This document shows positions 991-39,421 of a DNA stretch of 64,000 bases, piece by piece. The notes beneath the pieces are model-generated. The model was not told the DNA's origin, made no database searches, and saw only the letters and a list, made by a program, of their open reading frames with translations. The translations under genes and the position numbers were made by a program. The stretch comes from an uncultured Lachnospiraceae bacterium. GTDB taxonomy: Bacteria; Bacillota; Clostridia; Lachnospirales; Lachnospiraceae. Each line of letters opens with the position of its first letter. Positions within the stretch are counted from its first letter, which is position 1. The DNA lies in contig CAMNTQ010000008.1 in assembly GCA_946558695.1 (NCBI GenBank), positions 1 through 64,000 on the forward strand. The letters run 5' to 3'.

Positions 991-1013
991 TCTTTAACCC
1001 TCTTTATACCACA

Positions 1014-2120: not shown

Positions 2121-2170
2121 AGTGTACCCTCCTTAATTTTAGGTGTATAAGTGTATGTTTTTATCAGTAG

Positions 2171-4622: not shown

Positions 4623-4630
4623 TTCACCCC

Positions 4631-6052: not shown

Positions 6053-6062
6053 AAGTTTCTCC

Positions 6063-6962
6063 TTATTGCACGGAAATTTTTATATGATATTTGTTCTCGT
6101 ACTCTTTTAAAAACTGCAGATCCTTTACTTTAAGCGATTCCATATCTCCCATTTCGTATACGCGTCCCAGACCATGGTATTTATCAAGTCCAAGCCTGTG
6201 ATACGGAAGAAATACCACTTCCTTTACCCGCTCTAATCCTTCTGCAAATCCAAGGAATTTTTCAATGGCATACGGCTCATCATTGCAGCCCGGAATATAA
6301 GGATACCGAAGATAAAGCTCGCCTTTAAAATTTTGATCCATCCATCTGATATTATTTAAAATCTCACGGTTGTCTCTTCCGGTAAGCTCCAAATGCTTTT
6401 CTCCCGAAAAATGCTTATAATCGCAGTAAATAATATCAACATAGTCAGCTATCTCTCTTAATTTTCCTTGCGGGGCCTGCCCGCATGTCTCGATCAGCAC
6501 ATTCCACCCGCGTTCATGTGCCGATACGGAACATTTTTTTATAAAAGAAGCGTATAAAAGAGGTTCGCCGCCGCTGAATGTTATACCGCCTCCGCTTTCC
6601 AGATAATATACCTCATCCTTTGCAAGCTCCTCCATAAGCTCTTCTACCGTATAATCCTCTCCCTGTACCACCCTTGCATCTGCGTAACAGGCATCGATAC
6701 ATTTTTTACACATTGTACATTTCGTGCCGTCCGTGATCATTCCAAACTCAGGATGACGGTAGATCGCCCCGGAGGGGCAGGTCTTAAGACACCGCCCGCA
6801 TCCGGTACATTTGACTGATTTGAATAAGATCTGCGGCTCAAATAACTGTGACTCCGGATTGCCGCACCATTTACACCTTAGAAGGCAGCCTTTTAAAAAT
6901 ACTGTCGTCCGTATTCCGGGGCCATCCTCTGTTGAACATCTTTCAATATTAAATACTCTCAC
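6063..6962 (-). CDS. Glycyl radical enzyme activating enzyme (radical SAM with two 4Fe-4S ferredoxin-type clusters)
   Basis: FLKGCLLRCKWCGNPE (CxxxCxxC), CTGCGRCLKTCPSGAI and CTMCKKCIDACYADAR. Confidence 0.93.
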   Translation of the reverse strand: MRVFNIERCSTEDGPGIRTTVFLKGCLLRCKWCGNPESQLFEPQILFKSVKCTGCGRCLKTCPSGAIYRHPEFGMITDGTKCTMCKKCIDACYADARVVQGEDYTVEELMEELAKDEVYYLESGGGITFSGGEPLLYASFIKKCSVSAHERGWNVLIETCGQAPQGKLREIADYVDIIYCDYKHFSGEKHLELTGRDNREILNNIRWMDQNFKGELYLRYPYIPGCNDEPYAIEKFLGFAEGLERVKEVVFLPYHRLGLDKYHGLGRVYEMGDMESLKVKDLQFLKEYENKYHIKISVQ

Positions 6963-9374
6963 TTATAACGCTACCTCTGTTCTGTTAATGACGTCGTTCT
7001 GCGCAGATTCACCAAGAGAAGTAAAGAGCGCGCTGTAACCAGATACACGAACCATAAGGTCCGAATATTCTTCCGGATTTTTCTGCGCCGCCTTAAGCGT
7101 CTCATTGTCCGTAACATTAAACTGGATCTGCTGTCCGTCCATGCCAAAGAACGCCCGTATCATGCTGACAATCTTTCTCCTTGATTCCTCTGTCGCAATC
7201 GCGGAAGGAGCCAGGCGCATATTAAAGATATTGCCTTTCTGATCCCAGATGGTGGGTATCTTCCCAACAGAATTGCATGCCGCGGTAGCGCCGCTTCTTT
7301 CCGAACCATTCGCCGGAGAAACACCGTTATTCACAGGCGAGCCCGCCGCCCGTCCGTCCGGGGTGGCCCCGATCCTGCTTCCAAATGAAATATTTCCCGT
7401 AACCGGACTCTGGCTGTAAGAGAAACAGCACGGAACCGGACCTTTGCCGTATTTCGAGCTCTTGTAATTATGCCTTAAGCTGGAGCCGATATAATCTTCT
7501 ACCGCAACGACCCATTTATCTGCATAATCATTATCATTACCGAATTTCGGCGCTTTATTTTTCATAAGAAGCTGTATTTCCCCGCCGGTCGGAACCGTGG
7601 CAGTATCCTGAAAATTCGTCCTGCATGCATGTAAAACCTGTTCCATCGTAAGAATCTTCTTGTCAAACACCAGATATTCAATAGCTGTCAGCGCATCGCC
7701 GGAACTGATCGAACCCGCTGTAGGCCCGCCGTCCGCCGAATACAGGGAACCGCCTTCTACCAGATCCAGACATCTTCCGATACAGTCCTCTACAAGCGAT
7801 GACCGGAATGCATTCAGATCGTATCTGATATGTACATCATCATTGACATGCTCTGTAATACAGTTCAGATCCATAAAATATTTGAGCATCTTTTTAAATT
7901 CATCAAATATTTCATCTATGGATGTGCAGCAGGCAATTTCCTTGTCCGTTTTCTTAAACACAATTCCGGTAGCCGGGTCTATGCCGTCATTTAATGTGAT
8001 CTCTAATACCTTCTCTACATTAAGCCACGGCCCCTTTGCAGCAAAATCCCATTTTCCGGGAATCGAGGCTTCAATACATCCGTCCGGACTCCAGTCAACC
8101 AGATCTTCTTCCGCAATCCCCATATCACGCAAGGTTTTAATAAATGCATTGTCATTATAAAACGCAGGCATACCGCCTTTATGTTCAATCGCAGCCTCTA
8201 ACGCATTGTACAGCACTTCATCTTTCGTTCCGTCAAAGTATTTAACAGAAACGGAAGGCGTGATGAGCTTAAGCTCGCGGCAGGACTGAATGCAGAGCAT
8301 CGATACGGCATTGGTCGCGTCCCTGCCGTCTACAGTCTGTCCGCACACCGCCATATTGATAAACATCTGGTAGCCCATAAAGAATTCCGTATCCGGCCAT
8401 GAGCGGAGCTTGTTGATTTCATTACACTTGATAAAGAAACATTCTAAAATCTCCAGCGCTCTTTCTTCCGTGATTCTGCCTTCTCTGATATCCTTCTCGT
8501 ACAGCGGGTATACATACTGATCAAATCTCCCAAGGGATATCGCATGTCCGTTAGATTCCAAATGTACTGCAAGCAGTATGATAAAAATAGACTGTACTGC
8601 TTCTTGGAAAGTCTTTGCCGGATGAAGCGGTACATTGCGGCAGATCTCTGCAAGCTCAGACAACTCCTTCTTATACTCCTCAATACCGCATTTTTCTGCT
8701 TCTTCTTCACATTTATCTGCAATTCTTCCCGCAAAATTGACAACTGCCTGATTGCCAAGAAGAGCCGCATCCAAAAACTGTTTCTTTTTAAGGGAATCCG
8801 GTTCCAGCATATCCAAACTGTCTGCCTTAGCCTGAATCCTTGCCATCACGTCCTCTAACCCTTTTTCAACTACCAGCTTATAATCTGGTATTTCATTTCC
8901 AAGACCTGCCGCGCATACCCATGTTTCATCTGTCACGCCTGCATCCCATGCAGCATTCACTTCATCCGGCAGATTCTTTCTTACATAATCGTAAACGGTC
9001 TTTCCATTCCAGTATTCTGCGCATTCACGCACAAGCTTTTCATCCTCGGGAGTAATATAGAATTTATCTCCCGGTCTGTCCTCCCATCTATACGGCTTTC
9101 CATCAAGTTCATCTAAGATCCACTGTGCCGAATATTCCGGATAGATCGGCGCTCCCTTTGCTGTCTTTGACTGATTTCCTACAATCAACTCTCCCGGTTT
9201 CACCCAGACCGTCATCTGATCCAATACTTCATAAAATGATTTTGCACGTCTGATAATAATCGGAAGCCCATCTGTCTTCCCCATTGATTCTGTAAAAATC
9301 TTACATCTTTCGCCATCTACATACGGTTTCTGTTCCATTAATTCTTTACGTAATTTTTGTATTCGGTAATTCAT
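6963..9374 (-). CDS. Glycyl radical enzyme (PFL-like/dehydratase family), substrate unknown
   Basis: C-terminal glycyl radical loop RVSGYSALF; active-site Cys loop SPDGCIEASIPGKWDFAAKG; adjacent activase. Confidence 0.93.
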   Translation of the reverse strand: MNYRIQKLRKELMEQKPYVDGERCKIFTESMGKTDGLPIIIRRAKSFYEVLDQMTVWVKPGELIVGNQSKTAKGAPIYPEYSAQWILDELDGKPYRWEDRPGDKFYITPEDEKLVRECAEYWNGKTVYDYVRKNLPDEVNAAWDAGVTDETWVCAAGLGNEIPDYKLVVEKGLEDVMARIQAKADSLDMLEPDSLKKKQFLDAALLGNQAVVNFAGRIADKCEEEAEKCGIEEYKKELSELAEICRNVPLHPAKTFQEAVQSIFIILLAVHLESNGHAISLGRFDQYVYPLYEKDIREGRITEERALEILECFFIKCNEINKLRSWPDTEFFMGYQMFINMAVCGQTVDGRDATNAVSMLCIQSCRELKLITPSVSVKYFDGTKDEVLYNALEAAIEHKGGMPAFYNDNAFIKTLRDMGIAEEDLVDWSPDGCIEASIPGKWDFAAKGPWLNVEKVLEITLNDGIDPATGIVFKKTDKEIACCTSIDEIFDEFKKMLKYFMDLNCITEHVNDDVHIRYDLNAFRSSLVEDCIGRCLDLVEGGSLYSADGGPTAGSISSGDALTAIEYLVFDKKILTMEQVLHACRTNFQDTATVPTGGEIQLLMKNKAPKFGNDNDYADKWVVAVEDYIGSSLRHNYKSSKYGKGPVPCCFSYSQSPVTGNISFGSRIGATPDGRAAGSPVNNGVSPANGSERSGATAACNSVGKIPTIWDQKGNIFNMRLAPSAIATEESRRKIVSMIRAFFGMDGQQIQFNVTDNETLKAAQKNPEEYSDLMVRVSGYSALFTSLGESAQNDVINRTEVAL

Positions 9375-16905: not shown

Positions 16906-17670
16906 TCATTCTTCCGGGTCTGCAACGATCACTTCCTTTTTAAGCGCGCAAGCTTTTGCAAGAATCTCCGGAGAGGTCTTATTATCCGTGATGATTACGT
17001 CAATCTGGCTTAGGGGGATGGAGTTGCACAGAGAGACGTGCTCGCATTTGGTGTGATCGATCAGAAGGACTACTTTTTTTGCAATGGAGGCAAGCGCTCG
17101 CTTCGTCTCCACAAGCGGATAAGTATGTTCAAAAGCACCGCCCGGTATGCGGAATGCTCTGGCCGAGATAAACGCCACATCCGCCCGGTGCTGTGTCAAT
17201 GTCTCCCGGGAGTCAGTCATAATGGATTTTGTGCGGTGGTAGAGCATGCCGCCGGTTAAATATGTCTGGATATTTTCCTTATTGGACAGTTCTACCGCAG
17301 TCATGAGGTTGGAAGTGATGACTGAAAGCGGAATATTGTCGGGAAGAAACCTGGAAAAGGTGTGGGCGGTGGTGCCGGAGTCAATGCAGATTACGCTGTA
17401 GGGATGCACGAATTTTAACGCGGCTCTGGCAATCGCCTCCTTCTCGTACTGGTGCTCATCAATCTGCTCGTGAAAATAATTCGGCTTTGCCTCTTTCATC
17501 AAGAAAGCGCATCCGTGCTTGCGCCGAATAAGCTTTATATTTTCAAGCTCATTCAGATCGCGCCGGATCGTCATCTCGCTGCAATTGAGCATCTCCGCTA
17601 ATTCTTTCGGCGTACAGATCATCTGATTTTCCAACAGTTCTATAATCTTTGCATGTCGTTCCTTTTTCAT
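16906..17670 (-). CDS. DeoR/GlpR-family transcriptional regulator
   Basis: MKKERHAKIIELLENQMICTPKELAEMLNCSEMTIRRDLNELE; start trimmed to the ATG at 17670 (ORF track extends to 17793). Confidence 0.9.
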   Translation of the reverse strand: MKKERHAKIIELLENQMICTPKELAEMLNCSEMTIRRDLNELENIKLIRRKHGCAFLMKEAKPNYFHEQIDEHQYEKEAIARAALKFVHPYSVICIDSGTTAHTFSRFLPDNIPLSVITSNLMTAVELSNKENIQTYLTGGMLYHRTKSIMTDSRETLTQHRADVAFISARAFRIPGGAFEHTYPLVETKRALASIAKKVVLLIDHTKCEHVSLCNSIPLSQIDVIITDNKTSPEILAKACALKKEVIVADPEE

Positions 17671-17925: not shown

Positions 17926-18909
17926 ATGATTAAGATGCCTGAAAAAGAGCGCGCGGTCGGAATGTATAAAAAGATGTACCAGATCCGGCAGTACGAAGAG
18001 ACGATTTATTATCTGTTTCTGGAGGGAATCATGCCGGGAACGATTCATCAGTCCCACGGACAGGAGGCATGTGCGGTCGGGATGATCTATGATTTGAGAA
18101 AAGAGGATTATATTCTGACGACGCACAGACCTGCGGGACATGATCTTGCGAAAGGAGTGTCACTTCGTTCCATGATGTGCGAGATGTTCGGCAAAGCGGA
18201 AGGATGCTGCAAGGGAAAAGGCGGAGCGATGCACACCGGAGATATTGATGTTGGAGCGGTTACGGCGAATGCGATCGTAGGAGGCAACCTTCCGATTGCG
18301 GCAGGAGTGGCATTGCGATGTAAGATGATGAAAACGGACAATGTAACGGTGTGCTTTTTCGGAGACGGCGCAAGTAATGAGGGGGCCTTTCACGAGGCAC
18401 TCAATGCGGCGGCAGTCTGGAAGCTTCCGGTAGTCTATGTGTGTGAAAATAATCTGTATTCAGCCACAACCTCGATTAAGCTTACCTGTAATCTTGAAAA
18501 TGCAGCGGCGGACAGAGGAAGCGCTTATGGAATCCCCAGTGAAGTTGTGGATGGGAATGATGTTCTTGCGGTAAATGAAGCTGGAGCAAGGGCGATTGCA
18601 AGGGCGAGAAGAGGGGAAGGACCGACGATCTTAGAGTTAAAGACATACCGGATCGGCGGACATTCCAGAAACGACGCCTGCGGTTACAGACCAAAGGAGG
18701 AGGAAAAGGAGTGGTTTTCAAAAGATCCGGTTAAGAACTTTCGGAAACGCTTGACCGATGAAAAGGTTATCACAGAAAAAGAACTGGAAAAGATAGAAAA
18801 AGAGATTACAGATGAGATTGAGACAGAAGTAGAATATGCGAAGAACAGCAAGGATCCAGAACCGAAGTCTGCGCTTTGCGACGTATACTGGGAAGGAGGT
18901 ACACGATAA
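17926..18909 (+). CDS. TPP-dependent dehydrogenase E1 component alpha subunit (AcoA/PdhA-like)
   Basis: HQSHGQEACAVG, GKGGAMHTGDIDVGAVTANAIVGGNLPIAAGVAL, GDGASNEGAFHEALN. Confidence 0.9.
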   Translation: MIKMPEKERAVGMYKKMYQIRQYEETIYYLFLEGIMPGTIHQSHGQEACAVGMIYDLRKEDYILTTHRPAGHDLAKGVSLRSMMCEMFGKAEGCCKGKGGAMHTGDIDVGAVTANAIVGGNLPIAAGVALRCKMMKTDNVTVCFFGDGASNEGAFHEALNAAAVWKLPVVYVCENNLYSATTSIKLTCNLENAAADRGSAYGIPSEVVDGNDVLAVNEAGARAIARARRGEGPTILELKTYRIGGHSRNDACGYRPKEEEKEWFSKDPVKNFRKRLTDEKVITEKELEKIEKEITDEIETEVEYAKNSKDPEPKSALCDVYWEGGTR

Positions 18910-19947: not shown

Positions 19948-20862
19948 ATGAGCAGAGTATCACTAAAAACATTGATGGAACATGCGTTGGAACAGAAATA
20001 TGCCGTGGGATATTTTGAAAGTTGGAATCTTGAGTCGGCAATTGCGGTAGTGAGGGCGGCGGAAAATGTAAAATCACCCGTCATCATCGGCGTGTGCGGC
20101 ACTTATATCGGAGAACCCATGAGAAAATATAAAGAAAGCCTTACCGTCTATCAGGCGATGCTTTCCCAGATTGCCAAAGAGGCGAAGGTTCCGGTAGCGT
20201 TGCTTCTGAATGAATCAGATGATGAAGAGATGGTAATTCAGGCGGCGGAAAATGGATTTGATATGGTGATGTATGCTCCGGTATTTGCGACGGAAGAGGT
20301 TCCGTTCGATGAGCTGACCAAGATCCAAAAGCGGATCGTTGAGAAAGCGCATAAAAACGGCACGGCGGTTGAGGGCGAAGTAGGAGAGCTTCCGCTTTAT
20401 AATTCCGCAACCGGAAAACTTCATGAGGGAGAGGATACAGATCCTGAACTTTGCGCCGAATTTGTAAAAGAGACGGGTATTGATACAGTGGCCGTCTCTG
20501 TCGGGAACTGCCATCTGAAGGAAGACGGGATGGTGACAATTAATTATGATGCGCTGAAGATCTTGGCAGAAAGAATCGACATCCCCCTTGTTCTTCACGG
20601 AGGCACAAGTATCGCGCGGGAAGATCTCGGGAAGGCAGCCGCTATGGGAGTGGCGAAAGTAAACTTCGGAACGGGTATGAAAAGGGCCGTTTTAAATACT
20701 GTGAAGAAATATCTGGCAGAGCATGAGATCGATCAGATGGATCCCAATGATGTGTTAGGGCGCGGAGGAGAAAAAGATCTTCTTGTATTGGAGCAGGAGG
20801 CAGTCATCAGTTATGTAGAAGAGACGATTCGGGCGATGAACGGGGAAAACAAAGCATTTTAA
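19948..20862 (+). CDS. Class II fructose-bisphosphate aldolase-family protein with divergent active site
   Basis: Family fold motifs (GIDTVAVSVGNCH, IPLVLHGGTS, AKVNFGTGMKRA), but the canonical LDHG/LDHH motif reads LLNES. Confidence 0.85.
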   Translation: MSRVSLKTLMEHALEQKYAVGYFESWNLESAIAVVRAAENVKSPVIIGVCGTYIGEPMRKYKESLTVYQAMLSQIAKEAKVPVALLLNESDDEEMVIQAAENGFDMVMYAPVFATEEVPFDELTKIQKRIVEKAHKNGTAVEGEVGELPLYNSATGKLHEGEDTDPELCAEFVKETGIDTVAVSVGNCHLKEDGMVTINYDALKILAERIDIPLVLHGGTSIAREDLGKAAAMGVAKVNFGTGMKRAVLNTVKKYLAEHEIDQMDPNDVLGRGGEKDLLVLEQEAVISYVEETIRAMNGENKAF

Positions 20863-20875
20863 GCGGGGTAGGAAT

Positions 20876-22159
20876 ATGATTAAAGAGATCAGGATGCCGG
20901 CGGGCGGTCAGACAACGGATGTATCGGTTGTAGGAACATGGCTCGTAAAGATCGGTGATAAAGTGGAGCGCGGCGATGCGCTGCTTGAGATAGAGACGGA
21001 TAAGGCGACACTCACGGTAGAAAGTTATGCGAAGGGCATGGTGCTTGCGCTGCTTGCAGAGGAAGGCGATGAAACTCCGGCGGGAGAAGTAATTGCTCTT
21101 ATCGGTGACGAGAGCGATAAAGAAGAAGTAAAAGCAAGGCTTGCGGGAGAGGACATACTGAAGAACCGGGAACCGGAGAAAGAAAAGAAAAAAACTTTTG
21201 CAGAAGCACCGATGTCAGAAGAAGAATATCAGCCGATTGATAAAAATGCGCTGAAAAGGACGATGACAGAGGCTGCGGTTTCTGAAAATGAGGCAGATGT
21301 TTTGAAACAAAATGCTTTGAAGCAAGACCAGATAAAGGCTATGCCGAATGCAAAGCTTCTGGCAAAAGAACATCATATATCCCTAAAAGATGTGGCAGAG
21401 GCGACCGGGAAAAATATCCTCAAACGTCAGGATGTAGCAGCGTTTCTGAAAAATAATATACAGGAAGATATACTGAAAAAAGAGACGGTCATTCCATTTA
21501 CAAATGTGCGCAGGGTGATTGCCAGACGGATGCTTGACAGTGTACAGAATATTCCGGCATTTACGGTGACGGTTGAGATAGAGATGGCGCAATGCATCGC
21601 ATTACGGGAATTAATAAATTCCGCGGGAGATAACAGAAAAGTCTCTTACAATGACATTTTGTTCAAATGCGTGGAATCAGCGATACGTGCTTATCCATAT
21701 GTGAATGCCTCTTATTCGGACGAGGGAATTATCCTGCATAAAGACGTCAATATCGGACTTGCCGTGTCCGTGGAAGGCGGATTGGTAGTTCCGGTGGTGC
21801 ACGGGGTTCAGGAAAAGAATATTGCGGAGATCGCCGCGTGCAATCGGGAAAATGTCGGAAAAGCTAGGGAAAGAAGACTTTCGTTAGAGGAAATGTCAGG
21901 CGGAACGATCACGCTGTCGAATCTGGGGATGTATCCGGTCGCACAGTTTACTGCTGTTATCAATCCCCCGGAGGTCTGTATTCTGGCAGTGGGCGCGATA
22001 GAAGAAAAACCTGTTTTTACAGACGGAACATGGAGGGCTGTGCCTGTTATGAAGCTGACAGGAAGTTTTGACCATCGAATTGTGGATGGGGCTTATGCAG
22101 CCGAATTCCTGAGCGAATTGAAGAAAACAATCGAGAATCCGGCATTGGCACTGGTTTAA
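20876..22159 (+). CDS. Dihydrolipoamide acyltransferase (E2) component
   Basis: Lipoyl domain EIETDKATLTVES; C-terminal catalytic SFDHRIVDGAYAAEFL. Confidence 0.92.
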   Translation: MIKEIRMPAGGQTTDVSVVGTWLVKIGDKVERGDALLEIETDKATLTVESYAKGMVLALLAEEGDETPAGEVIALIGDESDKEEVKARLAGEDILKNREPEKEKKKTFAEAPMSEEEYQPIDKNALKRTMTEAAVSENEADVLKQNALKQDQIKAMPNAKLLAKEHHISLKDVAEATGKNILKRQDVAAFLKNNIQEDILKKETVIPFTNVRRVIARRMLDSVQNIPAFTVTVEIEMAQCIALRELINSAGDNRKVSYNDILFKCVESAIRAYPYVNASYSDEGIILHKDVNIGLAVSVEGGLVVPVVHGVQEKNIAEIAACNRENVGKARERRLSLEEMSGGTITLSNLGMYPVAQFTAVINPPEVCILAVGAIEEKPVFTDGTWRAVPVMKLTGSFDHRIVDGAYAAEFLSELKKTIENPALALV

Positions 22160-22187: not shown

Positions 22188-23573
22188 ATGCAGATGGAAG
22201 AGAACATATATGACTTGATTGTAATCGGGGGCGGTCCGGGCGGCTACGCGGCCGCCGTATCCGCGGCCAAGGAAGGACTTTCGGTATTGCTTTTTGAGGG
22301 CGGTACAGTGGGCGGTACATGCCTGAATGAAGGGTGTATCCCGGCAAAATATCTGCTGGATAAGGCAGCCGCTTTGGAAAAGGTAAGAACACTGACGGAA
22401 AAAGAGATATTCAAAGAGCCGGGGCTGTTCAGCTTTAAGAAGATCCAAAGAGGCAGGGAAGAAGTGATAAAAAAGCTTACGGACGGAGTACGGTATCTTT
22501 TAAAAGCTAATAAGGTAAAAGTGATTCATGGATTTGCGGCGCTTAAGGAAGCCGGAAAGGCAGAGTGCGATGGAAAGACCTATGAAGCAAAGGATATCAT
22601 TATAGCGACAGGCTCCGAGAGTATGAATATCCCTGTTGCCGGAACAGAGTATACGATCGGCAGTGCGCAGGCACTGGCGCTTGAGAGTGTGCCGAAGCGT
22701 CTTGCGATTATCGGCGGCGGGGTAATCGGCATGGAACTTGCAAGCGCCTATTGTTCTTACGGTTCCGAGGTGACGGTGCTGGAGGCAATGCCGTCTTTGT
22801 TTCCCGCCGAGGATAAGAAAATGATTTCTTATATGGAAAAGGAACTTACAAAGCGGGGAGTCCGGATACTGACCGGAAGAAAAGTAAAAGCGATCGAAAA
22901 AGCGGGACAGAGCCGGAGGGTGTTTTTTGAAGGGACTGAGCCGAAAGAGATTTACGCGGATGCAGTTGTTCTGGCGGCAGGACGGAAACCTTCTTATAAG
23001 GGAATCGATGCAGAGAAGCTTGGTCTTGCGCTTACGGAAAAGAAGGAAATACAGGTGGATGAGCATATGCAGACAAATATTCCGCATATCTACGCGATCG
23101 GTGATGTGATCGGCGGCTACCAGCTTGCCCATGCAGCATATGCGGAGGGCGAGACTGCAGTTTCGCATATCCTCGGAAAAGATGGGGAATCGGGGATTTC
23201 TGTAATGCCGAGATGTATCTATACTATGCCTGCCTATGCAGCGGCAGGACTTACGGAAGCGAAAGCAAAAGAGCAGGGGACAGAGACGGTGAAAGGCCAA
23301 TTTTTCTATTCGGGAAATGGAATGGCGCTGGCGGAAGGTGCGGAAGGATTTATTCAGGTGCTGATGGAAAAAGATACAAAGACGACAGTTGGGATACAGA
23401 TTGTAGGAGAAGGCGCGCCGGAGCTGCTTTCATTTGCGGCGCTTGCGGTAAAAAACAGAATGACCTTTGCTGAATGGCAGCAATTCATTGTAGCCCATCC
23501 GTCGCTTTCTGAGATGCTAAAGGAGGCGGCGCTTGACTGTTTTGGAAAGAGCATACACGGTGCGGCAAGATAG
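22188..23573 (+). CDS. lpdA: Dihydrolipoyl dehydrogenase (E3)
   Basis: GGGPGGYAAAVSAAKEG, GGTCLNEGCIPAK redox motif, YAIGDVIGGYQLAHAA. Confidence 0.92.
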   Translation: MQMEENIYDLIVIGGGPGGYAAAVSAAKEGLSVLLFEGGTVGGTCLNEGCIPAKYLLDKAAALEKVRTLTEKEIFKEPGLFSFKKIQRGREEVIKKLTDGVRYLLKANKVKVIHGFAALKEAGKAECDGKTYEAKDIIIATGSESMNIPVAGTEYTIGSAQALALESVPKRLAIIGGGVIGMELASAYCSYGSEVTVLEAMPSLFPAEDKKMISYMEKELTKRGVRILTGRKVKAIEKAGQSRRVFFEGTEPKEIYADAVVLAAGRKPSYKGIDAEKLGLALTEKKEIQVDEHMQTNIPHIYAIGDVIGGYQLAHAAYAEGETAVSHILGKDGESGISVMPRCIYTMPAYAAAGLTEAKAKEQGTETVKGQFFYSGNGMALAEGAEGFIQVLMEKDTKTTVGIQIVGEGAPELLSFAALAVKNRMTFAEWQQFIVAHPSLSEMLKEAALDCFGKSIHGAAR

Positions 23574-23585
23574 GAGGGAAGCTTT

Positions 23586-25136
23586 ATGAAGAGCTATATG
23601 ATAGGCTTAGATTACGGGACAGGCGGAGGAAAAGCGTGTATTATTGATGAGAATGCGGATGTGCTTGCGTATGCTTTCCGGGAGTATCCGATTTACACGG
23701 ATAAGCCGGGATGGTCAGAGCATGATGCGAATAATTATTGGACATTGGCTTGCGATACAATAAAGGAGTGTCTGAAAAAATCTAAAATAGCGCCAGATAG
23801 GATACGCGGGATAGGGATCTCTTCGGCGCAGCCATGTCTGGTAATGATAGATAAAGAAGGGAATCCGATTAACCGCGCTTATAATCTGATGGACAGGCGC
23901 GCAGTCAGTCAGGTGGAATGGCTCCGTGAGCATGTAGGCGTAGACGAGATTTTTCAGATCAACGGGAACCGGATTGAGGACTATCCGACGATGGTCAATA
24001 TTATGTGGGAAAAGGAAAACCGCCCGGAGGATTACAAAAGAATCTGGAAAACGCTTACCATAGACGGATTTGTGCGGTTTAAGATGACGAAGAAGACAGC
24101 TATGAGCTATTCCCACGGCGGATTTTGGGGAGTTGCCTACGATATCCGCAAAAAAGAATTCAAGAAGGAACTTATGGATAAACTTGGCATTGATATGGAA
24201 CTGATGCCAAAGCTGTATCCATGCGAGGAGATTATCGGAGAAGTAACAAAGGAAGCTGCTAAGGAACTAGGACTTGCGCCAGGTATTCCGGTGTGCGCAG
24301 GGCAGGTGGACTGCAACGCGGGCTTCGTCGGAGGCGGCGCCATTATGCCGGGCGATGTCCAGATCAATCTGGGGACATGCGGGGTTATGGGAGTCGTAAA
24401 TGACAGCAGGGAATTTACAGACCTTGTATGCAATGATGCCTATACAACGAATTCATGCAATGATTTTATCTCCATTGCGGTGGTGCTGACCGGGGGGCAA
24501 GTGCTCAGATACCTGCGGGATAATTTCTGCCGGATGGAGCAGGAGACGGCAAAGCTCATGGCGGATATGGACGTCTATGATATTATGAATAAAGAGGCGG
24601 AAAAAGTCCCGGCAGGAAGCGAGGGACTAATTGTGCTCCCGTATCTTGCAGGAGAAAGGACTGTACTGTGGGATGCAAAAGCGAGAGGAACCATATTCGG
24701 GTTGTCCGCGCGCCACACGAAGGGGCATTTGATCCGTGCGTTTATGGAAGGGGTTGCCTACGCGCTTTATGATAATTACCGCTTGATGTTAGAGAAGGGA
24801 ATCAAAGCGAACGCGCCGATCATCCTCAATGAAGGCGGAGCTAAGAGCAGGCTGTGGAGAAGGATTATTACCGATGTGTTCAATGTGCCGACTGCATTTG
24901 TAGAAAACCGTGTAGGAGCACCTTACGGGGATGCAATTCTGGCAGGCGTATCGGCAGGAGTGTGGAAGGATTTTTCCATAGCAAAAGAAAAGGTGAATTA
25001 TATTGATTATATGGAGCCAGATAAGAAGACGCATGAGATGTATATGGAATATTTTAAAATTTACCACAGGCTTTATGGGCACTTGAAAGAAGATTTCTCA
25101 GACTTGTATGAGACAGTGAAACGGTATGAGAAGTAA
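23586..25136 (+). CDS. FGGY-family carbohydrate kinase
   Basis: GLDYGTGGGKACIID, NLMDRRAVSQVEWL, LPYLAGERTVLWDAKARGTIFGLSARHTKGHLIRAFMEGVAYAL, LNEGGAKSRLWRRI. Confidence 0.9.
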   Translation: MKSYMIGLDYGTGGGKACIIDENADVLAYAFREYPIYTDKPGWSEHDANNYWTLACDTIKECLKKSKIAPDRIRGIGISSAQPCLVMIDKEGNPINRAYNLMDRRAVSQVEWLREHVGVDEIFQINGNRIEDYPTMVNIMWEKENRPEDYKRIWKTLTIDGFVRFKMTKKTAMSYSHGGFWGVAYDIRKKEFKKELMDKLGIDMELMPKLYPCEEIIGEVTKEAAKELGLAPGIPVCAGQVDCNAGFVGGGAIMPGDVQINLGTCGVMGVVNDSREFTDLVCNDAYTTNSCNDFISIAVVLTGGQVLRYLRDNFCRMEQETAKLMADMDVYDIMNKEAEKVPAGSEGLIVLPYLAGERTVLWDAKARGTIFGLSARHTKGHLIRAFMEGVAYALYDNYRLMLEKGIKANAPIILNEGGAKSRLWRRIITDVFNVPTAFVENRVGAPYGDAILAGVSAGVWKDFSIAKEKVNYIDYMEPDKKTHEMYMEYFKIYHRLYGHLKEDFSDLYETVKRYEK

Positions 25137-26997: not shown

Positions 26998-28044
26998 TTA
27001 TACCATCTTTACAACACCTTTTATTACTTCATCCTTATGGTTCAGACTGTAGTCAATTGCCTCGATACAATCCTCAAACGGGAACTCATGTGATACAATC
27101 TTTTTCACCGGAATCAGTCCGGATGCTACCGCCGCGATTGCTTTCGGCCACAGATTCCTGTAACGGTATACGGAATAAATGGTTCCTTCCATCGCATTCA
27201 ATGTCGCAATATCAAGCTCAAGTACCGGCTCCGGTGATACGCCTGTCAGCGTAACTTTTCCGCCGCGTTTGATCAGACGGCAAGTCTGCAATGTGGTAAT
27301 GCGGTTTCCTGCACACTCATATACCTGATCTGCACCGCCGCCCGGAAGCGTCTTTGCAAACTCTTCAATGTTCTCTCTCGTGCTGTTGAATACTCTTGTA
27401 GCTCCAACCTCCATCGCCTTTTCCAGACGTTTGTCCATAACGTCGGCTACGTATATCTCGCTGACTCCGCGCGCTTTCAGCGCCATAACAGTACAAAGAC
27501 CGATACAGCCGCTTCCCAGTACGATCGCCGTCTCGCCAACCCTTGCATCAGAAAGCTCCGTTCCGTGCATACCCACAGCCAGAGGCTCGATCATCGCACC
27601 CTCTAATGTGCCTACATTCTCCGGAAGCTTATAGCACATAGACGCATCATGTACGCAGTATTCCGCATTTACGCCGTCTCTCTCGTGAGGAATCGCAAGC
27701 ATCTTAATGTTTGTACACAGATTGTAAAGTCCTTTTCTGCACTCTTCACATTCTCCGCACGGAACAGCAGGCTCGATAGATACCTTATCACCAATCTCAA
27801 ACCCGGTTACTCCTTCTCCGATGGCAGTAACTACTCCGCCCGGCTCATGACCAAGCGCAAGAGGACCGTCAAGCGTCCAGTTCGCAAGCTGTCCTTCCTG
27901 ATAAAAATGAAGGTCAGAACCGCAGATTCCCACATATTCAAGCTTAATCTGGAGCTCTCCCGGACCGGGCTTCGGAATATCCCGTTCCACCCATTCCAGT
28001 TTCTGTTTTCCGGTCAATACACAAACTTTCATCTTTCCTTCCAT
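26998..28044 (-). CDS. Zinc-dependent medium-chain alcohol/polyol dehydrogenase (sorbitol/xylitol dehydrogenase-like)
   Basis: GICGSDLHFYQEG, LGHEPGGVVTAIGEGV, CGECEECRKGLYNLC. Confidence 0.9.
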   Translation of the reverse strand: MEGKMKVCVLTGKQKLEWVERDIPKPGPGELQIKLEYVGICGSDLHFYQEGQLANWTLDGPLALGHEPGGVVTAIGEGVTGFEIGDKVSIEPAVPCGECEECRKGLYNLCTNIKMLAIPHERDGVNAEYCVHDASMCYKLPENVGTLEGAMIEPLAVGMHGTELSDARVGETAIVLGSGCIGLCTVMALKARGVSEIYVADVMDKRLEKAMEVGATRVFNSTRENIEEFAKTLPGGGADQVYECAGNRITTLQTCRLIKRGGKVTLTGVSPEPVLELDIATLNAMEGTIYSVYRYRNLWPKAIAAVASGLIPVKKIVSHEFPFEDCIEAIDYSLNHKDEVIKGVVKMV

Positions 28045-28067
28045 ATCGCATTACCTCTTTTCTAAAA

Positions 28068-29549
28068 TTATTTTGTTAATACTCTGTGAACCGCCGAAAG
28101 CCATCCCTGATACTTATTATCCCGGATCTTTTTCTCCATCCTCGGCTCATATTTTACACGTTTTAATTTTTCAAATATCTTTTCATCCCAGACACCGAGC
28201 GCCAGACCTGCCGCATATGCCGGACCGATTCCAGACAACTCCTCTGAATCCGGAACCTGCACATCTGCCTCGGCAATATCGCTCTGGAACTGCATCAGAT
28301 AAGCATTTCTTGTCGGCCCTCCGTCTACCCGAAGCTCTCCAACCGTCACACCCGCATCTCCGCTCATGGCCTTTACGATATCCGTAATCTGATATGCGAT
28401 ACACTCAACGCCGGCTCTCACAACCTCTGCTTTCCCGGTCGTTCTCGTCATCCCCACAATTGCAGCGGATGCATGGCTGTCCCAGTAAGGCGCCCCAAGT
28501 CCGGAAAATGCCGGTATGAGATAAAGCGAATCATCGGATACCGCTTCTTTTGCAAGTTTTTCCGTCTCCGCCGGAGAATCTATCAGCTTCAGATCATCCT
28601 TCAGCCACGTAATAGTCGCTCCGGTATAATTGAGATTCCCTTCCAGCACATAATTCACCTTGCCGCCCATACTCCACGCCAGCGATGTCACTACTCCGTG
28701 GGTGCTGAGTACCGGCTTTTCTCCGATATTCATCATAATAGATGAGCCGGTACCGTACGTAGATTTGATCATACCGCTCTTAAGACACCCCTGCCCGAAT
28801 AAGGAACCATGAGAATCTCCCAGTACCCCATGTATCGGAATGGGTTTCTTAAAGAACCCTTCAAAGTCCGTCTCGCCAAAGTCAGCATCGGAATCTACAA
28901 CTTCTGCAAGATTCCCCGGATCGATTCCGAATAACTTACAGATATCCTCATCCCACTTCAATTCAAAAATATTGAAAAGCTGCGTTCTTGATGCGTTGGA
29001 GTAATCTGTTTTATAGGATCTCCCTCCTGTCAGCTTAAAAACAAGCCAGCTATCTACTGTTCCATGACAGATTTCTTTCTTTTCTGCTTTTTCTTTCGCA
29101 CCCTCAACATTTTCCAGAATCCATGCAATCTTCGATGCCGGAAAATAAGGGGACAGATTGATTCCGGTTCTCCTTCGGATATTTTCCGCTTCGCCCATTT
29201 TTTCCACGCGCTCGCAGATATCCACAGCCCTTGCACATTGCCATACGATCGCATGTCCGAGAGGCTCACCCGTCACTTTATCCCATGCAAGGGAAGTCTC
29301 TCTCTGGTTACTGATCCCGATGCCCACAACTTCTTCTTTATCAATGCCGGATTCTTCTACCAGTCTCTTTACAACCTCGACCGTGTTCCCGTATATCTCG
29401 GCCGGGTTATGGGAAACCCAGCCTTTTTCATTGATAATCTGCTCGTGCGGTTTGTCGGTGCGCTTGATAAGACTTCCGCTCTCATCAAAAAGAAGCGCTT
29501 TTGTACCCTGCGTACTCTGGTCGATACTGATAATATATTTTTCTGCCAT
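28068..29549 (-). CDS. FGGY-family kinase, glycerol-kinase-like
   Basis: IGISNQRETSLAWDKVTGEPLGHAIVWQ, TDYSNASRTQLFNI, YGTGSSIMMNIG, LRVDGGPTRNAYLMQFQSDI. Confidence 0.88.
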   Translation of the reverse strand: MAEKYIISIDQSTQGTKALLFDESGSLIKRTDKPHEQIINEKGWVSHNPAEIYGNTVEVVKRLVEESGIDKEEVVGIGISNQRETSLAWDKVTGEPLGHAIVWQCARAVDICERVEKMGEAENIRRRTGINLSPYFPASKIAWILENVEGAKEKAEKKEICHGTVDSWLVFKLTGGRSYKTDYSNASRTQLFNIFELKWDEDICKLFGIDPGNLAEVVDSDADFGETDFEGFFKKPIPIHGVLGDSHGSLFGQGCLKSGMIKSTYGTGSSIMMNIGEKPVLSTHGVVTSLAWSMGGKVNYVLEGNLNYTGATITWLKDDLKLIDSPAETEKLAKEAVSDDSLYLIPAFSGLGAPYWDSHASAAIVGMTRTTGKAEVVRAGVECIAYQITDIVKAMSGDAGVTVGELRVDGGPTRNAYLMQFQSDIAEADVQVPDSEELSGIGPAYAAGLALGVWDEKIFEKLKRVKYEPRMEKKIRDNKYQGWLSAVHRVLTK

Positions 29550-30479
29550 CTATACCAACTCCAGTGCTTTCTTTGCAATGCCCTCTGCGTTCATCTCATA
29601 GTAATCGAATACTTCCTTAGATGTTCCGGTAATAACCGGCGCATCCGGCAGAGCAATATTAACCACCTTCTTGGGGCATTCACTTCCTACCACTTGGCTT
29701 ACCATAGAGCCCAATCCGCCGAACGGAGCATGCTCTTCCACAGTGATGACTGCCTTTGCATTCGATGCTGCTTTTACGATTGCATCTGTGTCTAATGGTT
29801 TCACGCAGTACATGTCAACAACTGTCGCGCTGATTCCTTTTTCTTTTAAGATCGCCGCCGCATCTACAGACGGTTTTACCATCTCACCGCATGCAATGAT
29901 CGCAATATCAGTCCCTTCTGTGACAACTGTCGCCTTATCCATCTCAAACGGCACATTGCCTTCTTCGTAGACATCGTCAACCGCGTTTCTTCCCACGCGG
30001 ATGTAAGCCGGCTTGTCATCCTTAAGAAGCTCTTTTGTCAAAAGCTCTGTCTGAAGTCTGTCGCTTGGAAGATAGACTCTCATATTCGGAACTGCGCACA
30101 TTGCCGCAATATCCTGAGCAGAATGGTGGCTCATTCCCAGCGCGCCGTAGCTGACGCCGCCGCTGATGCCGATCAGTTTTACATTCGTATTGGAATACGC
30201 CACATCAACCTTGCACTGCTCATAACTTCTTGTGGACAGGAAACATGCCGGAGACGCCGCGTACGGCTTCTTACCGCATTTTGCAAGTCCCGCGGAGATG
30301 CTTACCAGATTCTGCTCCGCGATACCCGTCTCTACGAATTGATCCGGAAGTTCATTGGCAAAAGGTGTAAATGAAGCGCTCCCTCTAGAATCACTGCACA
30401 GAGCCACAACATCCTTATCCTGTTTTCCTGCTTCTATCAATACATCACAAATTACCTGTTTGTTTGCAATCTTAGCCAT
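29550..30479 (-). CDS. Transketolase C-terminal subunit (split transketolase)
   Basis: DSRGSASFTPFANELPDQFVETGIAEQNLVSISAGLA; overlaps the N subunit gene by 8 bp. Confidence 0.92.
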   Translation of the reverse strand: MAKIANKQVICDVLIEAGKQDKDVVALCSDSRGSASFTPFANELPDQFVETGIAEQNLVSISAGLAKCGKKPYAASPACFLSTRSYEQCKVDVAYSNTNVKLIGISGGVSYGALGMSHHSAQDIAAMCAVPNMRVYLPSDRLQTELLTKELLKDDKPAYIRVGRNAVDDVYEEGNVPFEMDKATVVTEGTDIAIIACGEMVKPSVDAAAILKEKGISATVVDMYCVKPLDTDAIVKAASNAKAVITVEEHAPFGGLGSMVSQVVGSECPKKVVNIALPDAPVITGTSKEVFDYYEMNAEGIAKKALELV

Positions 30480-31305
30480 GAAGCGCCGCCTCCTTTCCTG
30501 CTTTCAGATCTTTTTTGATCTGCTCAAGCTCCTCTGCGTTCGGTACCTTATGATGCCAGTTTGCCTTGTTCTCCATAACAGAAGAGCCTTTGCCCTTTAC
30601 TGTGTTGGCGATCAGCACTGTCGGTTTCCCTTTCACTTCCTTTGCCGCGTCAAATGCAGCCTTCAACTGGTCAATATCATTGCCGTCCGCCACATCGATC
30701 ACATTCCACCCAAAGGATTTCCATCTCTCATGAAGATCATCATGCGCCATAACATCCTCTGTATTACCGGAAATCTGAAGCCGGTTTCTGTCAACAACCG
30801 CACAGAGATTATCAAGCCCATAATGGCTTGCCGCCATCGCGCCTTCCCATACGGAACCCTCTGCGATCTCACCGTCTCCCATAACGGTATATACTCTGTA
30901 ATCTTTCTTGTCCATCTTACCAGCAAGCGCCATGCCTACACTGACCGGAAGCCCGTGTCCTAATGAACCCGAATTCATCTCGATACCCGGAAGCTTATTA
31001 TTGGGATGTCCGATGAACTTAGAACCGAATTTACTAAACTGAGCAATCACATCCCTGATGTCAAAAAATCCCTTTGCAGCCAGAACCGCATAATATGCCT
31101 CTACAGAATGTCCCTTACTCATAATGAACTTATCACGGTCAGGATCATCCATATTCTCAGGACTGATATTCATCTGATCAAAATAAATTTCCGTCAAAAT
31201 CTCCATAACACTCATGTCACCGCCAATATGTCCGGCCTTTCCTTCGACAATCATGTCAATTACATTTTCTCTTAATTCATAAGCTAATGCTTTTAAATTT
31301 TCCAT
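30472..31305 (-). CDS. Transketolase N-terminal subunit (split transketolase)
   Basis: MVEGKAGHIGGDMSVMEILTEIYFD, SKGHSVEAYYAVLA, MGDGEIAEGSVWEGAMAASHYGLDNLCAVVDRN; start trimmed to MENLKALAY. Confidence 0.92.
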   Translation of the reverse strand: MENLKALAYELRENVIDMIVEGKAGHIGGDMSVMEILTEIYFDQMNISPENMDDPDRDKFIMSKGHSVEAYYAVLAAKGFFDIRDVIAQFSKFGSKFIGHPNNKLPGIEMNSGSLGHGLPVSVGMALAGKMDKKDYRVYTVMGDGEIAEGSVWEGAMAASHYGLDNLCAVVDRNRLQISGNTEDVMAHDDLHERWKSFGWNVIDVADGNDIDQLKAAFDAAKEVKGKPTVLIANTVKGKGSSVMENKANWHHKVPNAEELEQIKKDLKAGKEAALHG

Positions 31306-31336
31306 TATCCATTTCCTTTCCGCCGCTTGACACAGC

Positions 31337-32320
31337 CTATTTTTTCTTAAATACACGTGTAACTTTATCACGCATCACCGGATTCTCCTTAATCGCATCA
31401 ACCGTTACAGCAATGAGCACAACGCCGCCAGTAACAACCGTCTCCCAGTAGGAGGATACACGAAGCAGTGTAATGGATGTCGAAACTGTCTGCTGCAGAA
31501 GACCGCCGATTACCGTTCCGATCACGCCGCCGATACCGCCTGTCATAGAAGTTCCGCCGAGTACGGAGGCCGCGATCGTCGGGTTTACCCAGTTCTCACC
31601 GATCGTCGCTTGGAAGGATGCCAGTTTACATGCCATCATAGTACCTGCGATTGCCGCAAGAAGCCCGCTCATAGCGTATACGATCACTTCTACTCTCTCC
31701 GTCTTGATACCAACAATCTTCGCACAGTTTCTGTTACCGCCCAATGCATAGATATGACGTCCGAATTTCGTATATTTCAGCATCATAGTAAGAATCAGGC
31801 AGATGATCGCCATAATAATCACGATCGTCGGAAGGAAACCTCCCAGTACTCCGTTTGCCACAAACTGTGCGCTGGCAGGCATACCTACGATCGGCGAGCC
31901 CTTTGTTACGATGTATACAACGCCTTTGTAAATTTCCGCCGTCGCCAAAGTTACGATAAACGGCGTCAGACGTAAGTATGCGATAAACAATCCGTTGATC
32001 ATGCCGAGCGCAATTCCGATCAGACAGGAAACGAGAATCGAAAGCCACGGATTCACGCCCTGCTCAACCATCAGCTTCGCTGCGCACATACTTGCTACGG
32101 AACCGACAGCCGCAACTGACAGGTCGATACCTCCCGTCAAAAGAACCATCGTCTGTCCAAACGCTACAATAATGATAAATGATGCCGCTCTCGTCAATGT
32201 ACTGATATTATATGCGGTAAAGAAATTCCCGGTAAAAAGATGTACGGCAATTCCTACAAGGATCGTTACGATCAATACCATTCCCGCAGTGGATTTTAAA
32301 AACTCTACTACCTTTTTCAT
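31337..32320 (-). CDS. Sugar ABC transporter permease (RbsC-like)
   Basis: LLTGGIDLSVAAVGSVASM, YALGGNRNCAKIVGIK. Confidence 0.92.
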   Translation of the reverse strand: MKKVVEFLKSTAGMVLIVTILVGIAVHLFTGNFFTAYNISTLTRAASFIIIVAFGQTMVLLTGGIDLSVAAVGSVASMCAAKLMVEQGVNPWLSILVSCLIGIALGMINGLFIAYLRLTPFIVTLATAEIYKGVVYIVTKGSPIVGMPASAQFVANGVLGGFLPTIVIIMAIICLILTMMLKYTKFGRHIYALGGNRNCAKIVGIKTERVEVIVYAMSGLLAAIAGTMMACKLASFQATIGENWVNPTIAASVLGGTSMTGGIGGVIGTVIGGLLQQTVSTSITLLRVSSYWETVVTGGVVLIAVTVDAIKENPVMRDKVTRVFKKK

Positions 32321-32335
32321 ATATAATTACCTCCT

Positions 32336-33823
32336 CTACTTAAATGCCATCTGAAGAACATCTTCCTCTGTGGTATATTCTACGTCGTCTATAAAGCCTT
32401 TCGTATGACCCTGATGCATGACCATTACACGGTCTCCCAGCGCCAACACCTCTTCCATCTCCGAAGAGATAACTACAACCGCAACTCCATTATCCGCCAG
32501 CTCTCTGACAAGCGCATGGATCTCAGCTTTTGCATTGACATCGATACCACGGGTCGGCTCATCCATGATCAGCATCCGGATTCCCTTTGCCATCCAGCGG
32601 GCAACGATAACCTTCTGCTGATTGCCGCCTGACAGATTCTTAATGAGGGCATCCCGTCCTGCCGTTTTAATACGAAATCTGTCGATATACTGATCTGTGA
32701 TCTCACTTGCCTTTTTATAATCGATCAGTCCGTTCTTTTTCAGTTGGTCATAGGAAGGAAGCACCATATTCTCCATAACCGACATACCAGGAGTGATACC
32801 GTCATGCCGCCGTTCCTCAGATACATATCCCATACCAAGCTTGATCGCTATTCTCGGATCGGCAATATCCACTTCTTTTCCTTCTATAAACATCTTTCCA
32901 CCCGGTTCCGGACGTGTAATCCCAAATACGCTTCGAAAGACCTCTGTACGGCCGGCTCCCACCAGTCCGGATACGGCAAGAATCTCACCTTTTCTCACGG
33001 TAAAGCTAACATTCTCAAACTCGCCCTGACGAGTCAGATTCTTTGCCTCGAAGAACACCTCATCCGACACCTTGCGGATTACATGCTGTGATTCCGTAAC
33101 CTTCTTACCGGCCATGTTCGTAACGATCTCTTCTTTTGTGATGTCCTTGATCTCCGTAACTTTTACAAGCTGTCCGTCTCTCATGATCGTCGCACGGTCC
33201 GCCTGAGCCATAACTTCATCCAGATGATGCGTAATAAATATCATGGAGGTTCCAGCCTTTTTCAGTCTCTGCATAGATGCAAACAAGGAATCCGCCTCTT
33301 TATTTGTCAGCACGGCCGTCGGTTCATCAAGGATCAATACCCTCGGCGAATATGCCAGCGCTCTGGCAATTGATACCAACTGCTGATAAGCCGCAGATAA
33401 ATGTTTTACTTTCTGCGTAACATCTATTTCTACATTCAGAAGCTTTAAGAGCTCCACCGCTTCTTTTTCTGCAGTTTTCCAACTAATCTTTACTCCGCTC
33501 ACTCTCTCATTTCCAAGAAAAATATTTTCCGCAATCGACGCTTCCGGAATCAGATTCAATTCCTGCGGCACGATTACGATATGATTGGATGACGCTTCCT
33601 GGGGAGATGATATCCTGATCGGTTTGCCGTCCATCAGAATCTCTCCTTCATCCATAATATACTGTCCTACCAGACAGTTCATCAGAGTACTCTTCCCGGC
33701 CCCGTTCTCGCCAAGCAGCGCATGGATTTCCCCTGGCTTGATACTAAGATCAACTCCATCCAAAGCTCTGGTTCCCGGAAATATCTTTGTAACTCCCTTC
33801 ATTTCAATTACGAATTCGCTCAA
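32336..33823 (-). CDS. Sugar ABC transporter ATP-binding protein (RbsA/MglA-like)
   Basis: GENGAGKSTLMNCL, LSGGNQQKVIVARWM, DEPTRGIDVNAK. Confidence 0.93.
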   Translation of the reverse strand: MSEFVIEMKGVTKIFPGTRALDGVDLSIKPGEIHALLGENGAGKSTLMNCLVGQYIMDEGEILMDGKPIRISSPQEASSNHIVIVPQELNLIPEASIAENIFLGNERVSGVKISWKTAEKEAVELLKLLNVEIDVTQKVKHLSAAYQQLVSIARALAYSPRVLILDEPTAVLTNKEADSLFASMQRLKKAGTSMIFITHHLDEVMAQADRATIMRDGQLVKVTEIKDITKEEIVTNMAGKKVTESQHVIRKVSDEVFFEAKNLTRQGEFENVSFTVRKGEILAVSGLVGAGRTEVFRSVFGITRPEPGGKMFIEGKEVDIADPRIAIKLGMGYVSEERRHDGITPGMSVMENMVLPSYDQLKKNGLIDYKKASEITDQYIDRFRIKTAGRDALIKNLSGGNQQKVIVARWMAKGIRMLIMDEPTRGIDVNAKAEIHALVRELADNGVAVVVISSEMEEVLALGDRVMVMHQGHTKGFIDDVEYTTEEDVLQMAFK

Positions 33824-33877
33824 CTTTCTTCACTTCCTCTACTTCTTTTTTCGAATACAAGTATCAAGTGCCGTTTT

Positions 33878-33922
33878 AAAAAAATCCACGTGACTATGTA
33901 CCGCATAATCACGTGGATTTTT
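33878..33922 (-). terminator. Intra-operon stem-loop / attenuating terminator between binding-protein and ATPase genes
   Basis: AAAAATCCACGTGA...TCACGTGGATTTTT, 14-bp arms; minus-strand T-run follows. Confidence 0.7.
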
Positions 33923-33987
33923 ATTGCTTCGTCCTTTAGTCACTTAGACAAATGATTCCACTTTGTTCTTACTTTAGTTGGTATCTG

Positions 33988-37423: not shown

Positions 37424-37572
37424 ACTCCAATTTCAATAAATTATTTTTGGAGTTAATTTTTATAGATTTTGGAGTTTTTGTGTTTAATACACAATATTAT
37501 TTTCATTTTATATTAAATTATTTGTGCATTTTTGCATATTGATAATCCATTTTCTCCAAACTATAATTGGAG
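37424..37572. promoter_or_regulatory. Cluster of five TTGGAG(T)/(A)CTCCAA half-sites: candidate RpiR operators
   Basis: ACTCCAA 37424-37430; TTGGAGT 37447-37453; TTGGAGT 37469-37475; CTCCAA 37554-37559; TTGGAG 37567-37572. Confidence 0.55.
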
Positions 37573-37620
37573 CATACACTAAATTTTTCAAAATTTTATT
37601 TAGAAAGGAATTTGTGTTTC

Positions 37621-38571: not shown

Positions 38572-38581
38572 GTATAACGAT

Positions 38582-39409: not shown

Positions 39410-39421
39410 GAGGAAACAAAT

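Follow-up and report, generated by a model that had tools for sequence, protein, structure and literature searches.

The window, by which we mean the whole 64,000-nucleotide stretch of Lachnospiraceae DNA analysed here, carries a run of forward-strand genes in the order E1alpha, E1beta, FBA-NE, E2, E3 and FGGY sugar kinase, with a DeoR-family regulator gene lying divergently. The third gene of the run encodes the class II aldolase-fold protein, here called FBA-NE, with which this study is concerned. The features of the locus are the following:

16906..17670, minus strand: DeoR-family regulator, divergent (the longest ORF, which begins at a TTG, reaches 17793; the lengths of its orthologues point to a start near 17670)
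17926..18909, plus strand: E1 alpha subunit (PF00676) of a TPP-dependent dehydrogenase, with no second E1 of this family in the genome
18909..19922, plus strand: E1 beta subunit (Transket_pyr and Transketolase_C)
19948..20862, plus strand: FBA-NE, class II aldolase-fold protein with N88-E89 at the positions of the catalytic Asp and the first zinc His
20209..20214, plus strand: codons of N88-E89 (aat gaa) in LLLNESDDEE, read directly
20512..20514, plus strand: codon of H189, a retained metal-type His (VSVGNCH/GNCH), from the reading and the 14-row alignment
20596..20598, plus strand: codon of H217, a retained metal-type His (LVLHGG), from the reading and the 14-row alignment
20876..22159, plus strand: E2 acyltransferase carrying a lipoyl domain at its N terminus; the lipoyl Lys (ETDKA) and the HxxxDG motif (DHRIVDG) were seen by direct reading
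22188..23573, plus strand: E3 dihydrolipoyl dehydrogenase (TIGR01350, 460 bits, cut-off 409)
23586..25136, plus strand: FGGY sugar kinase, with an orthologue (48% identity) in the Arthrobacter FBA-NE cluster

All parts of a dehydrogenase complex (E1alpha, E1beta, lipoyl E2 and E3) are thus encoded, and the catalytic motifs (lipoyl Lys, HxxxDG, CxxxxC) are present. The E1alpha scored below the cut-offs for housekeeping PDH subunits (336.6 vs 393.9 bits for TIGR03182 and 254.2 vs 411.4 bits for TIGR03181). The FGGY kinase found its best PDB match in LsrK and missed the LsrK equivalog cut-off (217.7 vs 528 bits).

The window contains four FGGY kinases and further sugar clusters. One of these (343-9374, minus strand), which also includes a ribose-type ABC transporter, has the appearance of a glycyl-radical pathway for a sugar or polyol:

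6963-9374, minus strand: glycyl radical enzyme of the PFL2-3 family, under the cut-offs of the named dehydratases
6063-6962, minus strand: glycyl radical enzyme activase
4631-6052, minus strand: FGGY kinase
343-990, minus strand: FucA/AraD-type class II aldolase

A third sugar cluster (26998-35100, minus strand) comprises a Zn-dependent alcohol dehydrogenase, a glycerol-kinase-like FGGY protein, a ribose-type ABC transporter and a split transketolase (29550-30479 and 30472-31371, minus strand); it adjoins the FBA-NE operon in the loci L006 and L008, and partly in L012. Another split transketolase, with its C half first, is found at 37567-41657 (plus strand) together with a putative cyclase and an FGGY kinase that is 30% identical to the FBA-NE-linked one.

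The FBA-NE reading frame is intact (304 aa and a stop), its coordinates and strand were confirmed, and its match to PF01116 (9.7e-55; 186.5 bits against a curated Pfam cut-off of 25.5) places it in the class II aldolase superfamily, where its closest solved relatives share about 30% identity with it. In the residue alignments the segment 'VALLLNESDDEE' was placed on VAIHLDHG of the solved FBAs 7ncc, 7nc7 and 3q94 and of YdjI (6ofu), so that the canonical L-D-H reads L-N-E, with D replaced by N at position 88 and H by E at position 89. The original prediction, that LDHH had become LNES at the catalytic Asp and zinc His, is therefore borne out, both by these alignments and by the N-E pair in 27 of 27 family members. 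Its further remarks also proved accurate: the canonical VMID of the VMIDAS/DGS segment reads VMYA at residues 107-110, and the His residues of VSVGNCH and LVLHGG (H189 and H217) are the same in every row of the 14-row alignment. A by-eye mistake or a frameshift was ruled out, as the ORF is unbroken and the N-E replacement conserved.

FBA-NE consequently lacks the catalytic Asp (D109 in FbaA, within LDH), this being Asn in all 27 members, and does not have the three-His metal site, H189 and H217 being present and the first His being Glu in every member. It also scored under every curated FBA equivalog or subfamily cut-off, among them TIGR01859 (184.6 vs 343 bits), TIGR00167 (160.9 vs 215.6) and TIGR01858 (141.2 vs 443.6). 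With the Asp and the third His missing and every one of these cut-offs unreached, we do not accept FBA-NE as a fructose/tagatose-bisphosphate aldolase.

With regard to the fold, an AlphaFold2 model built from the 14-row alignment (pLDDT 88.6) gave only class II aldolases as top Foldseek matches, at TM values of about 0.8-0.9 (3q94, 7ncc, the SqiA sulfofructose-phosphate aldolases 8q5a and 8q59, and the GatY-type 1gvf), indicating a (beta/alpha)8 barrel. As judged by the secondary structure of this model, residues 88-89, 189 and 217 lie at or just past barrel strands, a position from which E89 could replace the zinc His. The alignment and the strand-end position together suggest a 2-His-1-Glu site with E89 as a putative ligand. 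An alignment restoring an Asp/His pair had been named as evidence that would overturn the prediction; sequence alignment and secondary structure both went against a normal site.

The N-E pair occurs in Lachnospiraceae, in Planctomycetota and on one Arthrobacter plasmid, the copy on the latter being cut off by the start of the record. The Lachnospiraceae genomes carrying FBA-NE encode separate ordinary class II aldolases elsewhere, and these kept D-H in 21 of 21 cases (20 from relatives carrying the family and one from the window's own genome). Profile scores separated the two groups, with FBA-NE proteins at 262 bits or more and others at 161 or less, and the N-E sequences formed one clade (support 99/96), in which the truncated Arthrobacter sequence sits on a long branch. 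No variation was seen at N88, E89, E142, E144, H189 or H217 across the 14-row alignment (A2). An additional family-fixed change is E24 in YFESW (Y22-F23-E24-S25-W26), where the canonical motif is xFN; this stretch is absent from the truncated Arthrobacter copy. The Gly following the second metal His is also lost (H-G has become H-[LIVF] after H189), and the phosphate loops HGGT(S/G) and K-V-N-x-G-T are mostly kept.

A genome-wide scan yielded nine further Lachnospiraceae orthologues with 72-94% identity (from Hespellia, Faecalicatena, Extibacter, Ohessyouella and other species) and a planctomycete homologue with 38%. Profile searches recovered the protein in 4 of 395 Planctomycetota sampled across the phylum, 3 of 248 in one order and 11 of 45 in another. 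The family is nevertheless sparse, as the same kind of search in 295 genomes of the window's order and 292 of its class returned solely the window's own FBA-NE; tblastn of plasmids with this protein gave matches of about 30-35% among those listed, with no clear family member. Among Lachnospiraceae, dN/dS was about 0.03-0.05 for pairs with unsaturated dS, which rules out a pseudogene. The N-E swap is thus neither decay nor a one-off but a conserved family trait, and the altered site is a real and fixed variant inside the class II aldolase superfamily. The earlier expectation that a normal aldolase mechanism is unlikely gains weight from this conserved swap under purifying selection, from the missed equivalog cut-offs and from the separate ordinary aldolases.

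An E1alpha gene adjoins FBA-NE in 25 of the 27 loci (10 of 10 in Lachnospiraceae, 14 planctomycete loci and Arthrobacter), and the conservation of N-E in orthologues beside E1/E2/E3, which had been proposed as a check, was found throughout. The two remaining loci, L025 and L027, are on contigs of 3.1 and 3.9 kb; L025 is a deep-branching member and E1 is absent from its 3.1 kb contig. The E1alphas beside FBA-NE form one clade (97/98) across three phyla, apart from six plasmid E1s and other planctomycete E1s. Moreover, seven Lachnospiraceae genomes each encode no PF00676 E1 other than the linked one, which hence does not duplicate a housekeeping PDH. As each partner falls into a single clade (99/96 for FBA-NE and 97/98 for E1alpha), co-migration of the two as a functional pair is the most likely history, and together they have the look of an inherited module belonging to a catabolic pathway for sugar.

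The gene order varies between the groups. Lachnospiraceae relatives share the order of the window, often followed by a lipoate-protein ligase and a DAK-type dihydroxyacetone kinase. In Planctomycetota the order is DeoR, FBA-NE, lipoyl/E2, E1alpha and E1beta, with a PfkB kinase (nearest PDB structure YdjH) after FBA-NE in 5 of 14 loci; in the other 9 no PfkB adjoins, which makes a phosphorylated substrate less than certain. Some planctomycete loci also contain sugar transporters, a D-lyxose/mannose-isomerase-like cupin or, in six cases, GH38 glycoside hydrolases. The Arthrobacter order is FBA-NE, fused E1alpha-beta, lipoyl protein, FGGY kinase, regulator, ABC transporter and a second FGGY kinase, the latter being the orthologue of the window's kinase.

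Several of these loci have features of their own. One planctomycete operon (L050, 540-9428, minus strand) combines FBA-NE and E1/E2 with PfkB, an LsrF thiolase, an Rpe-like epimerase, an SDR and a D-lyxose-isomerase-like cupin; this LsrF is a true one (501.6 vs 297 bits), an enzyme whose substrate is a 1-deoxy diketone phosphate. As judged by ORF length and sequence, a lipoyl domain is apparently fused to E1alpha in L011, L026, L040, L042, L044, L045 and L047; these fusions have no E2 core, so the acyltransferase of that complex must come from elsewhere. A conserved protein of about 620-750 aa beside the operon in L046 (4148-6223, minus strand) has homologues in seven planctomycete loci in all, and neither it nor they gave a Pfam match. 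An FBA beside E1/E2/E3 in Rhizobium sophoriradicis (L053) is canonical, reading LDHG, and hence is not a family member.

The presence of the swap in three phyla, nearly always beside a dedicated complex, points to a new step of sugar breakdown and not to ordinary glycolysis. The explanation we favour, at somewhat under an even chance, is that FBA-NE is a metal-dependent ketose isomerase or epimerase feeding an acyloin to E1/E2/E3 for oxidative splitting to acyl-CoA. The metal ligands, the reaction type, the order of steps and the substrate class in this scheme are what we infer. FBA-NE would have lost fructose-bisphosphate cleavage and would isomerise or epimerise a ketose, probably phosphorylated, with a metal held by H189, H217 and E89 (a 2-His-1-carboxylate arrangement) in place of the 3-His zinc site, leaving E24, E142 and E144 available for acid-base roles. 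The product would be an alpha-hydroxyketone (acyloin), whose carbonyl would be attacked by the TPP of the co-inherited E1alpha-beta/E2/E3 complex and whose C-C bond would be split oxidatively, giving acyl-CoA and NADH from one half and an aldehyde (phosphate) from the other, chemistry akin to that of acetoin dehydrogenase or to an oxidative reverse of DXP synthase.

Precedents exist for the separate parts of this scheme. E. coli FbaA D109A has no FBP activity and epimerises F6P at C4 at a near wild-type level, and the carboxylate E175 has been suggested as a zinc ligand in FbaA (PMC5434028). Isomerase/epimerase chemistry can thus be reconciled with loss of the Asp, whereas FBP cleavage cannot; the idea of such chemistry, already put forward in the original prediction, has a direct precedent in this mutant. 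E. coli PDH E1 can be mutated to form DXP (PMC3424233), which makes DXP-like acyloins plausible substrates of the FBA-NE-linked E1. In an adjacent branch of the E1 phylogeny, the E1 genes adjoin DRL oxidoreductases (DXR-type-II family, PF21135), whose characterised relatives convert DXP to MEP (PMC3847144); DRL would be a second skeleton-rearranging enzyme that goes with an E1 of this kind. LsrF yields acetyl-CoA and DHAP (PMC8016206). Together, the behaviour of FbaA D109A, the DXP-forming E1, the DRL-linked branch and the LsrF of L050 suggest, by analogy, a pathway ending in acyl-CoA through the splitting of a ketose-like alpha-hydroxyketone that FBA-NE would prepare. The sugar kinase, DeoR, sugar transporters and isomerase-like cupin beside FBA-NE in various members speak for the explanation; most of the phosphate-binding loops being kept, the absence of an adjacent PfkB from nine of the 14 planctomycete loci, the lipoyl-E1alpha fusions without E2 core and L025 without E1 count against it.

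The retained loops HGGT(S/G) and K-V-N-x-G-T would fit retro-aldol chemistry as well, and a rather unlikely alternative is a retro-aldolase acting on another ketose-1-phosphate, in which a different acid (e.g. E24 or a loop Glu/Tyr) stands in for the Asp, DHAP and an aldehyde are formed, and either the aldehyde or a different intermediate is processed by the complex. The PDB match of the planctomycete PfkB to YdjH agrees with this, the pairing of a YdjH/YdjI-type PfkB kinase with a class II aldolase being a known arrangement. However, we know of no natural E1 with a free aldehyde as its main substrate, every member has another residue in place of the catalytic Asp and of one metal His, and FBP cleavage is abolished in FbaA D109A (PMC5434028). 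That FBA-NE is still an ordinary FBA/TBP aldolase with a site misaligned by eye is scarcely credible: despite the overall identity of about 30-35% and the shared fold, N-E was obtained both when HMMER aligned the protein to solved FBAs and in the family alignment, every equivalog cut-off was missed and ordinary FBAs are encoded elsewhere in the genomes, so this reading is already contradicted.

Loss of the aldol acid together with retention of the C1-phosphate loops would be explained if FBA-NE abstracted the C3 hydrogen of a ketose-1-phosphate and expelled the C1 phosphate, the type of expulsion that methylglyoxal synthase performs on DHAP. The resulting 1-deoxy-2,3-diketone would provide the E1 complex with an acetoin/diacetyl-like substrate to be cleaved to acetyl-CoA and an acid, but PfkB is not adjacent in 9 of the 14 planctomycete loci, and we consider this proposal very improbable. 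A non-catalytic pseudo-aldolase, serving as a scaffold or sugar-phosphate sensor of the dehydrogenase complex, is improbable as well: it would accord with the change of both canonical catalytic positions and the strict E1 linkage, yet H189, H217, E142, E144 and the phosphate loops show little or no variation, and the N-E pair, far from drifting, is the same in all members.

Returning to the isomerase/epimerase explanation, we propose tentatively, with slightly less confidence than in the scheme itself, that FBA-NE founds a non-aldolase class II branch (a 2-His-1-Glu isomerase/epimerase) which, with its dedicated lipoyl-dependent E1 complex, would make up an undescribed route from sugar (phosphate) to acyl-CoA via oxidative acyloin cleavage, common to gut Lachnospiraceae, Planctomycetota and the Arthrobacter plasmid. 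If so, an aldolase fold has been turned into a different enzyme through two neighbouring residues and a few more, and anaerobic gut bacteria having no other PDH-type E1 would split sugar, not pyruvate, with a lipoyl complex. Automatic annotation labels such genes class II fructose-bisphosphate aldolase (e.g. the Arthrobacter copy) and so hides an apparently distinct catabolic module. FBA-NE and the ordinary paralogues within one genome also form a clean pair for studying the loss of aldol cleavage in class II aldolases.

In the open-access literature searched, we found no description of a pairing of FBA-NE with an E1 complex, which does not prove that none exists. Compared with the class II FBP/TBP aldolases (FbaA, GatY/KbaY, IolJ, YdjI and SqiA; PF01116), FBA-NE has the same fold and family by Foldseek and Pfam and retains two of the three metal His and most phosphate-loop residues, but it differs in the Asp to Asn, first metal His to Glu and Asn to E24 changes, in the missing Gly past the second metal His, and in its place by a TPP dehydrogenase instead of glycolysis or galactitol genes. 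Acetoin and pyruvate dehydrogenase complexes likewise have E1alpha, E1beta, lipoyl E2 and E3 in one operon, and a lipoate-protein ligase is also close by in several FBA-NE relatives; here, in contrast, an aldolase-like gene and a sugar kinase gene are mixed in with those of the complex, and the E1alpha belongs to a clade of its own under the PDH E1alpha cut-offs.

The LsrK-LsrG-LsrF pathway of autoinducer-2 catabolism resembles the present system in the PDB match of the FGGY kinase to LsrK, in the LsrF of one planctomycete operon and in an acetyl-CoA-forming end step. The kinase is, however, far under the LsrK cut-off and no LsrG was seen; autoinducer-2 degradation as the whole answer was rejected on account of this kinase score and the GH38 enzymes in six planctomycete loci, and the planctomycete glycoside hydrolases and sugar isomerase point to a glycoside-derived sugar. 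Plasmid operons joining a DRL oxidoreductase to E1alpha-beta/E2 were seen in L053 (7603-13763), L057 (6607-11341) and L058 (6550-11307), one of them beside PTS genes, and possibly represent a catabolic use of the DXR-II family. Such operons of Rhizobiales/Rhodospirillales plasmids share with ours a related E1 pair and an enzyme from a family that can rearrange a sugar-phosphate skeleton, whereas DRL itself, an NAD(P)-dependent oxidoreductase, has no relationship to FBA-NE.
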